A DNA stretch of 64,000 nt from Candidatus Micrarchaeota archaeon (GTDB lineage Archaea > Micrarchaeota > Micrarchaeia > Micrarchaeales > Micrarchaeaceae): contig JAGWHU010000001.1 in assembly GCA_028866575.1 (NCBI GenBank), positions 64,197 to 128,196 on the forward strand, written 5' to 3'. Positions 7,565 through 30,048 of this stretch are shown here, piece by piece. Position 1 is the stretch's first letter. The number at the start of each line of letters is the position of its first letter. The notes below the pieces were generated by a model, which saw only the letters and a program-made list of their open reading frames with translations, had not been told where the DNA came from and did not search any database. Both the position numbers and the translations under genes were made by a program.

Positions 7565-10500
7565 ATGGTACTAGGATTGTTTGCTGCCATTATCATATCG
7601 TTCTTTTCTATGTTCATACCTGGCCTTCTTCTTGCGCTTGCGCTTTTGAGAAAGACTGAGCTTCACATATTTGAGATAGTGGTAATCGGGTTCATATTCG
7701 GCCTCATAGCTCCGGCAACAATGACATGGGCCGAGTCGTACCTCATGAGCTACGTGCATGCCTTCTCGTTCTCGCTATCGCTTTTCGAGGCTAATGTACT
7801 TGCGCTTACGGTCGTAGGCGCAATCCTGTGCTACTGGCAGGGCGTCTTCAAGGACCTTTCATCAACGCTTCACGGCCTTTCGGGAATGCTCGGCGGCTCG
7901 CGGCCTTCAGCAGCCGACGGCAGCTCAAACCCCGAGGCAGAGACGAAGAGGCGCAGCAAATCAATGTGGTGGGTGTGGGCCATACTTGTAGCGCTCATGC
8001 TCATAACTTTCTATACCAGGCTGCAGAGCATAGTGATAGCCCCGAAGTTCTTCGAGTTCGATCCGTACTTCGACATGATAGACACACATTACATACTTAC
8101 GTACGGGCACCAGCTGCTACTTGACCCATCCGCATGGCCTGTAGTTGCTGCAGGGACAAACCACCGGCTTCAGCCGCTGGTTCCGTACCTTGAGGCCTTC
8201 TGGTATACTCTAGTAAACGGGCTGCAGTACCACAAATCTGCGTTCAGCACCTCATTAATGAGCTACGTAGGCAGCATATACCCTCCAATAACTGCTGCTC
8301 TTCTTGTATTCTCCATATTCGTGCTCCTTTACCATGAATACGACGAGAGGATAGGCCTTATAGGCGCCGCCCTGACCGCAACGATGCCAGTACTTTTCAC
8401 CACATTCATAGCAGGGGAGCAGCTCGTCGAGCCGTGGGGTATATTCGCTCTGTTCTTCTTCTTTGCAACCTATATGCTTGCCGTTAGAAACCCGAAGGAC
8501 AAGAGGCTGGCAATACTCGCAGGTATAGCGTTCGCGTCAAACTTTTTGGGCGCACACTACTATACAGTAACAACCGGAGTCCTTGCCATATACATAATAT
8601 TCGCAGGCCTGATAGACATACTGAGGGGAGAGTCACTGGCAGATTTCTACAAAATGAACGCGATAGTCATAGCAATAATAATACTGTTTTATGCGCTGTA
8701 TGCGCCGTACCAGGCAACGCTGCAGAGCAACCTCTCGGGCGTACTGGGCATCCCGATAATAGTCGCCGCGCCGCTGTTCGCGTTGATACTCATAGCACTG
8801 CTTGACTTCATACCCAAATTCATGGCAAGCAAAAAGCTCATAATAAAGGAGGCCAACTTCATCAGCAGGCTCGGATTCATGGTAATAGTAGGCATACTCG
8901 CGAGCATAGCCATACTGTTTACCAGGATAGGCAATCCAATAAAGAACTACATAGAGATAAGCACCAGGTTCACAACCCCGTCGAAGCCGCTCTTCATGAC
9001 AGTGCAGGAATTCATACCTACTGGTCCAACATACGCATTCGGCTCGCAAGGATTCGGGGCCCTAGGCGCTGGCATGCTCGGCGTTCCTATAATAATATGG
9101 GTCGTGTGCGTGATATCGATAATGCTAATATGCATGTCTATCGCCTTCAGGAAAAGCAAAACTGGAATACTATACATAGCAATAGCGCTGCCGCTGATGG
9201 CTGCGGGGTTCTCGGAGGTCAAGTACCTCCCGCATTTCGGAACCGCATACATAATGCTCTTCGGTATAATGCTCGGCGAATTGCTGTACATTGTCTCTTC
9301 AAATTACCACAAAATGGCAAAGCACAGGGACATACTCATAGGCATATCTGCTGTGATAGGCGTAACCTCCCTGCTGATAGGGTTCTCCCTATACAGCTTC
9401 GGCATAGCGGCAACGGTGAGCCTCGGTGTCCTCATACTCGCGCTTCTGATGCTTCTGGTTTACTTCTCCAGGGCAGAGCAGGAGCAGTACAGCATCAAGT
9501 CCATATACGAAGAGCACCCGCTTGCTCTCGGGCTTGTGCTTGTTGTAGGGCTGTTCTTCCTTTTCGGCCTTGCGTTTTCGATTGCAGCCATCGCATTCAT
9601 ACTGATATATTTATACGGGATCAAGCAGGAAAAGGGCAGGAACAACGCGGTGCTTGTAGTCGCATGCGTGCTGCTGGCCCTGTTCTCGCTTACATCCCAC
9701 ATGTTCCTGTACGGTGAAGGAAGCTCCATAATAGGCTCGATAAGCGCGCAGGTAACATACGCCACGAGCCCAGCAAGCGCATGCAACATACTGTCCAATG
9801 CGGGGAACAGCCTCGGATACAACTCCTACTGCAACACCATACCCCAATACTGGCTGAACGCAATGACATGGCTCCACATAAACGTAGGGCCAAACGCGCC
9901 TCGAGTCCTTGCATGGTGGGACTACGGCGACTGGATAAACTGGTTCGGCAACAGCAATGCGGTTCTCAGGGGGGACAACTCGGTCGCAACCGAGGACTAT
10001 GCCGTCGCGGCGCAGTACGTCCTTGGCCCGAAATACAACTATACTCCCCAGAGGCTGGCGCAGTACATGAATGGAAACCAGACAAGGTACGTGCTGTTCG
10101 ATCAGGACCTCATACAGAAATGGGGTGCGCTCAACTTCCTCGGCTGCGTCAACATAAACTCGACATCCGAGGCTTTCGCGCTCGCTCAGGGCAGGAGCAG
10201 CTCCCCTCCAGTGCCATACGTGCTGGGTACGTCCCAGTGCGAACAGGCACATGATCCCGAATTCGTGCTGCTTCCCCTGTCTGCACTGATACAAACAAAC
10301 CAGTCGCAGAGCATCAACAACTACTGCATGATATCAAACAGCACAACCACATACATAAGCGGTTACCTTGTAATAGGCAACAGCCTAGAGAACAATACCG
10401 TTTGCGTCAGCAGCGCGCCCAATGCGGGAGGGGTTCTCGGCGTTTATACCACTACGGGCAAGAAGATGAACGCAGTCGTTCAGGCATCACAGTACCTGGG

Positions 10501-10798
10501 GGTGCAAAACATACAGGGAAGCCTTTACGTGGAATTCCTTATGATATACGTGCCTAACGGCCCGAATGGCACCATAACAGACGCGCCTTCAGAGTTCTAC
10601 AACTCGAATTACTACAAGGGCTTCATACTCGGAGACCTTCCTGGATTCAGGCAGGTATATCCGCTAAACGCAACAGGCATAAACTTCATCAATGGCACTT
10701 ATCCTGTAAGGATATTCGAGCTCGTCAACTACACGGGGGGATTGCCTCCGGTTCCTGCCAAACCATCATGGATAACGAACAACGACGTAATGCCGTGA
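7565..10798 (+). CDS. aglB: STT3/AglB oligosaccharyltransferase
   Basis: This membrane enzyme moves a lipid-linked glycan onto Asn in N-x-S/T sites of exported proteins. The 1077-residue protein has many hydrophobic segments in its first ~720 residues. The first external-loop acidic motif is EFDPYFD, with Asp166 and Asp170. The diagnostic WWDYGDW motif is at 784-790 at the start of the soluble catalytic domain. It follows S3 after 62 nt without a convincing promoter between. Several neighbouring surface proteins are rich in N-x-S/T and are plausible substrates. Confidence 0.95.
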   Translation: MVLGLFAAIIISFFSMFIPGLLLALALLRKTELHIFEIVVIGFIFGLIAPATMTWAESYLMSYVHAFSFSLSLFEANVLALTVVGAILCYWQGVFKDLSSTLHGLSGMLGGSRPSAADGSSNPEAETKRRSKSMWWVWAILVALMLITFYTRLQSIVIAPKFFEFDPYFDMIDTHYILTYGHQLLLDPSAWPVVAAGTNHRLQPLVPYLEAFWYTLVNGLQYHKSAFSTSLMSYVGSIYPPITAALLVFSIFVLLYHEYDERIGLIGAALTATMPVLFTTFIAGEQLVEPWGIFALFFFFATYMLAVRNPKDKRLAILAGIAFASNFLGAHYYTVTTGVLAIYIIFAGLIDILRGESLADFYKMNAIVIAIIILFYALYAPYQATLQSNLSGVLGIPIIVAAPLFALILIALLDFIPKFMASKKLIIKEANFISRLGFMVIVGILASIAILFTRIGNPIKNYIEISTRFTTPSKPLFMTVQEFIPTGPTYAFGSQGFGALGAGMLGVPIIIWVVCVISIMLICMSIAFRKSKTGILYIAIALPLMAAGFSEVKYLPHFGTAYIMLFGIMLGELLYIVSSNYHKMAKHRDILIGISAVIGVTSLLIGFSLYSFGIAATVSLGVLILALLMLLVYFSRAEQEQYSIKSIYEEHPLALGLVLVVGLFFLFGLAFSIAAIAFILIYLYGIKQEKGRNNAVLVVACVLLALFSLTSHMFLYGEGSSIIGSISAQVTYATSPASACNILSNAGNSLGYNSYCNTIPQYWLNAMTWLHINVGPNAPRVLAWWDYGDWINWFGNSNAVLRGDNSVATEDYAVAAQYVLGPKYNYTPQRLAQYMNGNQTRYVLFDQDLIQKWGALNFLGCVNINSTSEAFALAQGRSSSPPVPYVLGTSQCEQAHDPEFVLLPLSALIQTNQSQSINNYCMISNSTTTYISGYLVIGNSLENNTVCVSSAPNAGGVLGVYTTTGKKMNAVVQASQYLGVQNIQGSLYVEFLMIYVPNGPNGTITDAPSEFYNSNYYKGFILGDLPGFRQVYPLNATGINFINGTYPVRIFELVNYTGGLPPVPAKPSWITNNDVMP

Positions 10799-10852: not shown

Positions 10853-10962
10853 GGGCTTGTAGCTCAGCATGGTTAGAGCGACGGTCTTATAATTTTAAAC
10901 TCCAACATGGGGTTTAATCAGAGGAAAGCCGTAGGTCGAGAGTTCAAATCTCTCCAGGCCCA
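10853..10962 (+). tRNA. tRNA-Ile (anticodon UAU), intron-containing
   Basis: The acceptor stem GGGCTTG/CAGGCCC, D stem GCTC/GAGC, anticodon stem ACGGT/GCCGT and T stem GAGAG/CTCTC with loop TTCAAAT all pair. The discriminator is A at 10962 and CCA is not encoded. The anticodon loop after splicing is CTTATAA, giving anticodon TAT at 10888-10890. Most archaea read AUA with an agmatidine-modified CAU tRNA; a genomically encoded UAU is unusual. An intron interrupts position 37/38. Confidence 0.88.
10892..10926 (+). other. tRNA-Ile intron at position 37/38 with relaxed bulge-helix-bulge
   Basis: The 35-nt intron sits at the canonical archaeal site. Its core folds as a 9-bp hairpin, TTAAACTCC (10895-10903) with GGGGTTTAA (10909-10917). 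The 3' three-nt bulge AAA (10925-10927) and the 5' bulge TAA (10890-10892) are separated by a central helix CTTA/GAGG in which three of four pairs form. This is a relaxed substrate for the splicing endonuclease. Confidence 0.75.
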
Positions 10963-28020: not shown

Positions 28021-30048
28021 TCAGCACCCGCAGTTACCTCCGCATCCGCAGGATCCTTCATGTGCCTCACCTGCATGTGCCCCGGAGCCGCATCCGCACT
28101 CCGAATCCGCCTTGCCGCAAGCGCATGACTCATCCTTGCCGGAAGGCTCAGCCGCCTTGGTTTCGCTGAAATTCACCTTTGTTTCAGTTGACGGTGCTCC
28201 CTTCGGTGCGCTTGTCATTACCACCTGCATTTCAGGCGCGTCGAACTTCTCGTTTGCGAAGTTCCTGACATGCTTGCCTCCGTTAACCGGCAGCTCGAAG
28301 TAATCCACGAGCTCACCGTACGTCTTCTTGTAGAGCTCGCCTTTCTCCAGCTCCTTTACGTTCCTGACGTACTTGTCCTTAGCGTATGTCCATGCGTTGT
28401 GCGTTTTCTCCCATTCCTTCGATGGTATGCTGTACTGCTTCTGCACCTTGTCCCTGTAAACCTCCGGAAACACGTTGAACGTGCAGAACGGAAGCACCTC
28501 CCCGTCCGGCATCGCGTAGTGTATGTCGCACTTCTCTACCCTGTGTATGTCATACGTGTATTCGTCCTGGAAGTGCATCATTCCCAGGAAAAGCGTCTTC
28601 ATCTGGAACGTGCCCATCGATTCGAAGTTGTGCTTCAGGAGCACCGACATGAGCAGCTTCATGAAATTGACGCTCTTCGGCTGCTTCTTCTTGTCTATGA
28701 ACCTGTTGATCCCGAACAGCGTCTTGACTGCTATGAGCCTCCTCTCGAGCTTGCTCTTGCCCTCCATTTCGTTTACAGCCTTCTGCAGGTGTTCAAGCAT
28801 TCCCGCAGCATCAACGAATTCCGTTATCGGTATTATCTTGCCGTCAGGGTCTATGAAGAGGTAGCATCCCGCACCGCAGGCGAAATGTATGGACAAATCG
28901 TACTTGAACTCGCCCGTCAGCGCCTCTATGAACTTGTTTATCCCGCCTACATACGGCACAGAGAACCAGTGCTCCTTCCTTATCACGCCGTTCGTCTGCT
29001 CCTCTATCAGCTTTATCGCCCCGGGGATCGATATCCTCTGCTTCTCCCTGAGCCTCGTCGGCATCCTCCCTACAAGTGATACCGGCTGGAAGTTGACTGC
29101 CCTTATTATGTCTATGTTGTTTATCGCGAAGTTGATCATTGCACCCAATTCGTGGTCGTTTATCGTCCTTATTACCGTGGGCACAAGGACTATGGTGCTG
29201 CCTGCCTTCCTTATTGCATCAAGAGTCATGGGCACCTCCCAATGGTTCTTCGGATTTGCGCGCTTGCTTACGCCGTCAAAGCTCATGTAAAGCGTGCTTA
29301 CCCCAGCATGCCTGAGCTGGTAAGCCATATCGGGGTTGAGCCCTATGTTTATGCCTGTGGTGTTGAGCTGTATCTGGTCGAAGCCGACCTCCTTTGCCGT
29401 CCTGACTACATCTATTATCTGCGGATGCATCGTAGGCTCCCCTCCCGTTATCTGTATGGCATTGGCTGGTATCGGCTTCTGGTTCCTCAGGTTTATGAAT
29501 ATCTTCTTTATCTCGTCAAGCGTAGGCTCGTATATCGGCTCGCCCTCCTTTGCATAGAAGAAGCAATACCAGCAGCTAAGGTGGCACCTGTTAGTTATCA
29601 CCACGTTGGCAAGACCTGTGTGCGACTTGTGCCTCTCGCACATGCCGCAATCAAACGGGCAGTTAGCGCCCTTCGTCTCGGTTATGTAGTTTGGATTCTC
29701 GAAGCCCCTTCCGTAGTAGTTGTATCTCCTCATCTTCATGTACATGTCGTAGTCTTCCCAGTATTTCTCCACAGTCCACTGGTGCTCCGGGCAGAACTTC
29801 CTTATCATCACGTTGTCGCCGTCCTTGTATATTATGCCGTTTATTATCAGCTTGCACTCAGGGCAAACAGTCATCGTCTTCTCTATTATGGGCATCTTCT
29901 CTATTTCTTCAAGGGTCCTGTGATAAGGCGCAAGCACCGGATCCGATGTCTGAGATTCCGAAACGCTTATCTCCGGCCTTACGCTATTAATATTAACGCT
30001 TATGCTCTCTACGACCGTCCCGTCCCTGTGTTGTGGGCTATTCGGCAT
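28021..30048 (-). CDS. tes: Radical SAM protein, tetraether lipid synthase (Tes/MJ0619) type
   Basis: Tes-type enzymes join lipid tails of two archaeol molecules to make tetraether lipids. The N-terminal metal-binding module has C62-C65 and CPEH at 86-89. CPFDCGMC at 130-137 holds a further cluster site. The radical SAM triad CHLSCWYC is at 155-162, then a GGEPTMHP loop. This order is as in MJ0619. From residue 640 the protein ends in a Cys/Gly-rich tail with eight Cys. ATG 30048 has GGTG 7 nt upstream. MJ0619-type proteins were also proposed to act in pterin methylation, so the substrate is inferred. Confidence 0.8.
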   Translation of the reverse strand: MPNSPQHRDGTVVESISVNINSVRPEISVSESQTSDPVLAPYHRTLEEIEKMPIIEKTMTVCPECKLIINGIIYKDGDNVMIRKFCPEHQWTVEKYWEDYDMYMKMRRYNYYGRGFENPNYITETKGANCPFDCGMCERHKSHTGLANVVITNRCHLSCWYCFFYAKEGEPIYEPTLDEIKKIFINLRNQKPIPANAIQITGGEPTMHPQIIDVVRTAKEVGFDQIQLNTTGINIGLNPDMAYQLRHAGVSTLYMSFDGVSKRANPKNHWEVPMTLDAIRKAGSTIVLVPTVIRTINDHELGAMINFAINNIDIIRAVNFQPVSLVGRMPTRLREKQRISIPGAIKLIEEQTNGVIRKEHWFSVPYVGGINKFIEALTGEFKYDLSIHFACGAGCYLFIDPDGKIIPITEFVDAAGMLEHLQKAVNEMEGKSKLERRLIAVKTLFGINRFIDKKKQPKSVNFMKLLMSVLLKHNFESMGTFQMKTLFLGMMHFQDEYTYDIHRVEKCDIHYAMPDGEVLPFCTFNVFPEVYRDKVQKQYSIPSKEWEKTHNAWTYAKDKYVRNVKELEKGELYKKTYGELVDYFELPVNGGKHVRNFANEKFDAPEMQVVMTSAPKGAPSTETKVNFSETKAAEPSGKDESCACGKADSECGCGSGAHAGEAHEGSCGCGGNCGC

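Follow-up and report, generated by a model that had tools for sequence, protein, structure and literature searches.

Archaea are stated to read the isoleucine codon AUA by means of agmatidine, and archaeal tRNAs with a UAU anticodon are described as absent or as two isolated gains (PMC6000648, PMC8450103, PMC8007984; here and below, papers are cited for those portions of their text that were available). The available text of one of these papers gives a UAU tRNA for two of 167 archaea (PMC6000648), and that of another names Nanoarchaeum equitans and Korarchaeum cryptofilum only (PMC8450103). A literature search, which covered titles and the openings of abstracts and had subscription papers mostly outside its scope, returned no paper on UAU tRNAs in DPANN archaea, none on agmatidine with DPANN, and nothing related on TiaS with DPANN. 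The gene described here lies in a 64,000-nucleotide stretch of DNA from a Candidatus Micrarchaeota archaeon, referred to as the window. Very probably it encodes the AUA-reading isoleucine tRNA, and the sole one observed, of a Micrarchaeota-type archaeon whose lineage lacks the agmatidine system; its transcript would be spliced at 37/38, charged with isoleucine, and read AUA through U34-A pairing, with AUG left to tRNA-Met(CAU) because Elp3 is absent.

A tRNA-Ile(UAU) gene with an intron

The features of the gene are collected in Table I. The tRNA model RF00005, whose gathering score is 29, was matched over model positions 1–71 of 71 (E 3.9e-10 when the window was scanned), and the genome scan returned the same place. 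ARAGORN reported no tRNA at this position, presumably because of the intron. The gene folds at −38.7 kcal/mol (z −3.5) with an intact cloverleaf from which the intron projects as a hairpin, and folding of the joined exons gave a 75-nt cloverleaf. Intronless orthologues read GGTCTTATAAGCCG and carry the loop CTTATAA, so the anticodon is UAU without recourse to any splicing model; the same orthologues rule out a different anticodon produced by alternative splicing. Moving the splice by one base, with an A on both sides, yields an identical mature RNA.

TABLE I. Coordinates of the tRNA-Ile(UAU) gene and its parts in the window
Feature	Position	Strand	Basis
tRNA-Ile(UAU) gene with intron	10853..10962	+	RF00005, 58.8 bits, end to end
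5' exon, positions 1–37	10853..10891	+	Aligned to intronless orthologues
Anticodon TAT (34–36)	10888..10890	+	Loop CTTATAA of intronless orthologues
35-nt intron at 37/38, internal hairpin TTTAAACTCC / GGGGTTTAA	10892..10926	+	Register common to 70/70 introns; 3/4 central pairs here
3' exon, A38 to A73	10927..10962	+	Intronless orthologues; A73 in 82/82 parsed archaeal UAU genes

Comparison of 70 distinct archaeal introns revealed a common splice register, in which intron bases −6 to −3 form at least three of four pairs with C32-U33-U34-A35 in every case and all four in 54. Base-shuffled introns reached this level in a mean of 11.0 and a maximum of 20 of 70 (1000 trials), and shifted registers in no more than 14. 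Not all UAU matches were accepted as archaeal: 16 parsed rows from bacteria-named records (mostly candidate-phylum, together with Thermus, Meiothermus, and Streptomyces) were dropped before these counts, and 52 rows that resisted parsing, for the most part owing to a contig end or to another intron within the T arm, were read by eye. The shared register is that of the archaeal bulge-helix-bulge. With three of four central pairs, the window's intron lacks the full four-pair helix of the canonical motif, which is flanked by two 3-nt bulges, and is a relaxed form. The initial annotation had described a UAU anticodon and a 35-nt intron at 37/38 with a relaxed bulge-helix-bulge, and the model match, the orthologue alignment, and the shared register bear out each part of that description. 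The archaeal splicing endonuclease would be expected to cut the precursor at 37/38, leaving a mature tRNA of 75 nt with the anticodon UAU.

Both A73 and the GGGC acceptor are shared with tRNA-Ile(GAU) of the same genome. By overall similarity, the tRNA stands as close to tRNA-Arg(UCU) as to tRNA-Ile(GAU), with 59 identities to each, which counts against the isoleucine reading; an arginine identity was nevertheless rejected, as tRNA-Arg(UCU) has G73 in place of the A73 found here. The discriminator and the Ile(GAU)-like acceptor are suggestive of charging with isoleucine, and IleRS may be helped by them.

The neighboring genes (ribosomal proteins, a HIT protein, PCNA, and an STT3-like ORF of 1077 amino acids) are uninformative on AUA decoding. 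The 1077-residue ORF (7565–10798, + strand) matched nothing in Pfam, and its match to archaeal STT3 oligosaccharyl transferase was weak, scoring far below the cut-off. Elsewhere in the window, the tetraether lipid synthase Tes was matched strongly at 28024–30048 on the − strand, with 654 bits where the cut-off is 450, and this small archaeon may therefore make its own tetraether lipids.

Distribution of UAU tRNAs

The window's order comprises two families (f1 and f2) and is taken, by inference, to be the Micrarchaeales of PMC12892359. A strict UAU pattern matched 138 of the 223 phylum genomes, and its reversed control matched none. A looser pattern matched 80 of 98 good phylum genomes (control, 1 of 98); the window's order contributed 47 of its 51 genomes and the remainder 33 of 47. 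The four genomes of the order without a match to the looser pattern were G012, G014, G015, and G069; the best matches of G014 and G069 were GAU tRNAs.

A scan of named genomes returned at least 115 UAU stretches. The archaeal titles among the matches listed were Micrarchaeota, Woesearchaeota, Pacearchaeota, Nanoarchaeota, Aenigmatarchaeota, Nanohalarchaeota, Diapherotrites, and Altiarchaeota, and some bacteria were also present. The view in the initial annotation that only a few archaea, such as Nanoarchaeum, encode a UAU tRNA fits the literature but not the genomes, in which such tRNAs are common across DPANN. Two records titled Candidatus Marsarchaeota (L144 and L202) appear to be genomes G020 and G197 of the window's order, and their titles look wrong.

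Intronless UAU tRNAs with the loop CTTATAC were found in candidate-phylum and unnamed bacteria (L145, L163, L168, L169, L196, L200, L203, L210, L214, and L223), and reduced bacteria may likewise often carry tRNA-Ile(UAU). Identical intronless UAU tRNAs were present in two genera, in Meiothermus luteus (L148) and Thermus caliditerrae (L181), and are perhaps carried by a mobile element.

TiaS and tRNA-Ile2(CAU)

The genome from which the window comes (G000) has 1,127,809 bases in 53 contigs and is 97.5% complete. The probe for TiaS was a single Pfam domain, PF08489, which matched four of four archaeal control genomes in each search. No match was obtained in the window's genome and 98 relatives (0/99) or in the phylum at completeness ≥80% (0/223). 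The same was true of the genomes behind the named UAU loci among the matches listed (0/38; 29 archaeal and 9 bacterial by title), of the phylum of a Pacearchaeota record (0/279), and of the phylum of an Altiarchaeota record (0/10); these genome sets overlap in part. The suggestion in the initial annotation that this lineage may lack TiaS and agmatine-dependent decoding is thus supported from its own genome and from its phylum.

Among 47 tRNA-model matches in G000, the CAU tRNAs were the initiator (L015) and an elongator tRNA-Met with an intron (L023), with no tRNA-Ile2(CAU), the second isoleucine tRNA that the initial annotation had set against its reading. Intron-bearing tRNAs were read by eye in this census, which is incomplete, as no tRNA-Cys was recognized, and a hidden or oddly split Ile2 could have escaped it. 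A CAU pattern returned the same elongator alone. Many tRNAs of G000 (L041–L051, for example L042, L043, L044, and L046) are interrupted by introns within the T or D loop and are hidden from ARAGORN on that account. Of the 98 phylum genomes, 50 contained the CAU pattern, with 52 matches in total; 50 of these matches had the same elongator arm, YYAGA-CTCAT, and the exceptions were in G217 and G167. The CAU tRNA of G167 (L233) looks bacterial and has an encoded CCA end; G167 itself shows 4% contamination and lacks a UAU match, and the tRNA probably derives from a foreign contig.

A divergent or non-homologous substitute for TiaS, acting on a CAU tRNA-Ile2 that was missed, would reduce the UAU tRNA to a minor extra. 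The narrowness of a one-domain probe and the odd-place introns that hide several G000 tRNAs from scans give this reading some room, but it is very improbable given that PF08489 found all four controls and none of the 223 phylum genomes, that the CAU pattern yields essentially one type of tRNA (50 of 52 matches), and that the UAU tRNA is kept in nearly all good genomes of the order. Reading AUA, the main isoleucine codon, is also an unlikely job for a minor tRNA. The core of the reading is well supported: TiaS is missing from this lineage in these searches, and a UAU tRNA very probably stands in for agmatidine decoding.

Isoleucine codon use and loss of Elp3

In 55 ORFs of the window, ATA was counted 1094 times, ATT 132 times, and ATC 188 times, in agreement with the initial annotation, which had named ATA as the commonest isoleucine codon. 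Over 1578 isoleucine codons of the window, the shares were 76% ATA, 13% ATC, and 11% ATT. ATA made up 91 of 106 isoleucine codons in six ORFs of the ribosomal-protein region and 70% in 30 other pieces of G000. The AUA share was 72% of 1754 codons in relatives from the order, 44% of 2879 in the other families of the phylum, and 26–45% in other DPANN groups. Comparison by locus (29 against 29, each with enough codons) gave means of 0.72 and 0.43, with a Mann-Whitney p of 9e-10 that ignores relatedness. In the same window ORFs, CTA accounted for 7% of leucine, GTA for 28% of valine, and AGG for 65% of arginine codons. A-ending codons are thus not favored generally, and a mere A+T bias was rejected as the cause of the AUA preference, CTA and GTA failing to follow it.

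Elp3, an enzyme acting on the wobble uridine, was sought with TIGR01211 in 98 phylum genomes of completeness ≥90%. It scored above cut-off in 47, which were all 47 of the genomes outside the window's order, and in none of the 51 genomes of the order, five of which gave weak matches below cut-off. In haloarchaea, a tRNA-Ile mutated from CAU to UAU receives cnm5U34 and then binds AUG (PMC7694415). We infer that cnm5U34 depends on Elp3, in which case loss of Elp3 would remove one hazard. Without Elp3, U34 should miss the Elp3-type side chain that permits reading of G. The tRNA-Ile(UAU) would then read AUA by U34-A pairing, and AUG would be left to tRNA-Met(CAU).

The dominance of AUA could be unrelated to the tRNA or to Elp3, being instead a signature of inheritance or growth condition, with the coincidence of Elp3 loss a single event in a single order; this has a substantial chance of being correct, if somewhat below even. 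AGG is dominant as well, and a joint preference for AUA and AGG is known from thermophiles. The AUA share of other UAU-using groups (26–45%) likewise indicates that a UAU tRNA alone brings no AUA dominance. Weighing on the other side are the low use of CTA and GTA, the strength of the AUA preference in the ribosomal-protein region, and the lower growth temperatures predicted for Micrarchaeales (PMC12892359).

Distribution of the intron and its pairing with the D arm

The presence of the intron was scored in 160 genomes, being those with a fetched UAU gene and not a random draw. Calls required the bulge-helix-bulge register, which was itself tested only on the set of 70 introns, and two introns, those of G123 and G124, entered this count truncated. 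In the window's order, 55 of 94 genes had an intron and 39 had none; in the other families of the phylum, 64 of 66 had an intron, none was intronless, and two were left without a call. Parsed archaeal UAU genes from outside the phylum also had introns, with the exception of L130.

These distributions bear on a rival reading, in which a different modification of U34, such as the eukaryotic pair of pseudouridines at 34 and 36, prevents misreading of AUG, rather than the absence of Elp3. The idea draws on yeast tRNA-Ile(UAU), in which both pseudouridines need an intron-bearing precursor (PMC4090602, PMC11912914), on the age and wide spread of archaeal UAU introns, and on the Elp3-bearing families, which use the same tRNA, so that another safeguard must exist there. 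It is nonetheless rather unlikely: in the window's order, the 39 intronless genes argue that an intron-dependent route is not general, and an unmodified UAU anticodon is reported to suffice in Mycoplasma mobile (PMC4013482).

Many introns of the other families begin with NGRC, followed by CGYUCURRY-ACA, the middle part of which pairs with D-arm nucleotides 20–26. When 58 distinct sequences were aligned, almost without gaps, 80.0% of 460 cells were standard pairs. Sliding the partner gave 22–53%; re-dealing the rows, a test that leaves relatedness in, gave a mean of 75.7%, with 80.0% reached in none of 2000 trials. The two variable pairs scored 86.6%, against 69.5% on re-dealing (0/2000), with U-A, C-G, and G-C types present. 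The D arm was the best target of the intron segment among all windows of the 5' exon. Fifteen of the 58 rows had four or fewer of the eight pairs, so the element is not universal. At least seven paired bases at the D-arm target were found in 26 of 63 introns of the other families versus none of 55 in the window's order.

In several other families, introns of the elongator tRNA-Met also carry complements to the D arm; such pairing may thus be more general, which counts against a special role. By the rule for C/D guides, the fifth base upstream of the box marks the target. The tRNA-Met(CAU) introns (L227–L256, together with L023 at G000:C4:66166–66281) have the look of C/D-box guides, with an antisense TTATGAGT followed by CTGA in several families. 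The fifth base before the box faces C34, which suggests a guide for 2'-O-methylation of C34; a related ATGAGTGATGAGC core is retained in the window's order.

As a hypothesis, the joint pattern of intron and Elp3 could be read as loss of an intron-dependent safeguard against misreading of AUG. The link is built on one contrast, that of one order with the rest, and so possibly reflects one event. In a fuller version, the UAU tRNA would be an old, shared DPANN substitute for agmatidine, made safe by the intron where Elp3 is present: the conserved intron segment would pair with D-arm nucleotides 20–26 and, with the ACA triplet that follows, shield U34 from Elp3 or offer the anticodon to an enzyme that modifies it, perhaps a Cbf5-like one. 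Once the window's order had lost Elp3, AUG would have been less at risk of being misread, the D-arm element would have decayed, the intron would have become dispensable, and AUA would have risen to be the main isoleucine codon. We offer this scenario tentatively and regard it as unlikely in its entirety.

Comparison with known systems

A large part of archaeal diversity appears to read AUA otherwise than published accounts state, which changes the inferred history of archaeal AUA decoding. Elp3-bearing and Elp3-less relatives with the same tRNA provide a natural comparison for how reading of AUG by a UAU tRNA is avoided. Since Micrarchaeum has been brought into co-culture (PMC8975820; Ca. Micrarchaeum harzensis, presumably of the window's order), the mature tRNA is open to direct examination.

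The archaeal agmatidine system performs the same task as that proposed here, the reading of AUA as isoleucine without reading of AUG, but does so with TiaS and tRNA-Ile2(CAU), neither of which was found in G000. In the bacterial UAU systems of Mycoplasma mobile, some Bifidobacterium, and Neorickettsia, a UAU tRNA replaces the modified CAU tRNA, as here, and an unmodified U34 is reported for M. mobile (PMC4013482); these belong to another domain and lack the intron that is present in the window's gene. Eukaryotic tRNA-Ile(UAU), with its intron-dependent pseudouridines made by Pus1, shares the anticodon, the 37/38 intron, and the decoding problem (PMC4090602, PMC11912914). It differs in that the window's order contains many intronless genes. 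Closest are the tRNA-Ile3(UAU) species of N. equitans and K. cryptofilum, which have the same anticodon and no accompanying tRNA-Ile2(CAU) (PMC8450103), a tRNA that the incomplete census of G000 did not show either; the K. cryptofilum gene has an intron too (PMC6000648). Whereas the available descriptions present these as two species-specific gains, the UAU tRNA described here extends across an entire phylum and into further DPANN groups, in a setting in which TiaS is absent, AUA is the main isoleucine codon, and Elp3 has been lost from the window's order.
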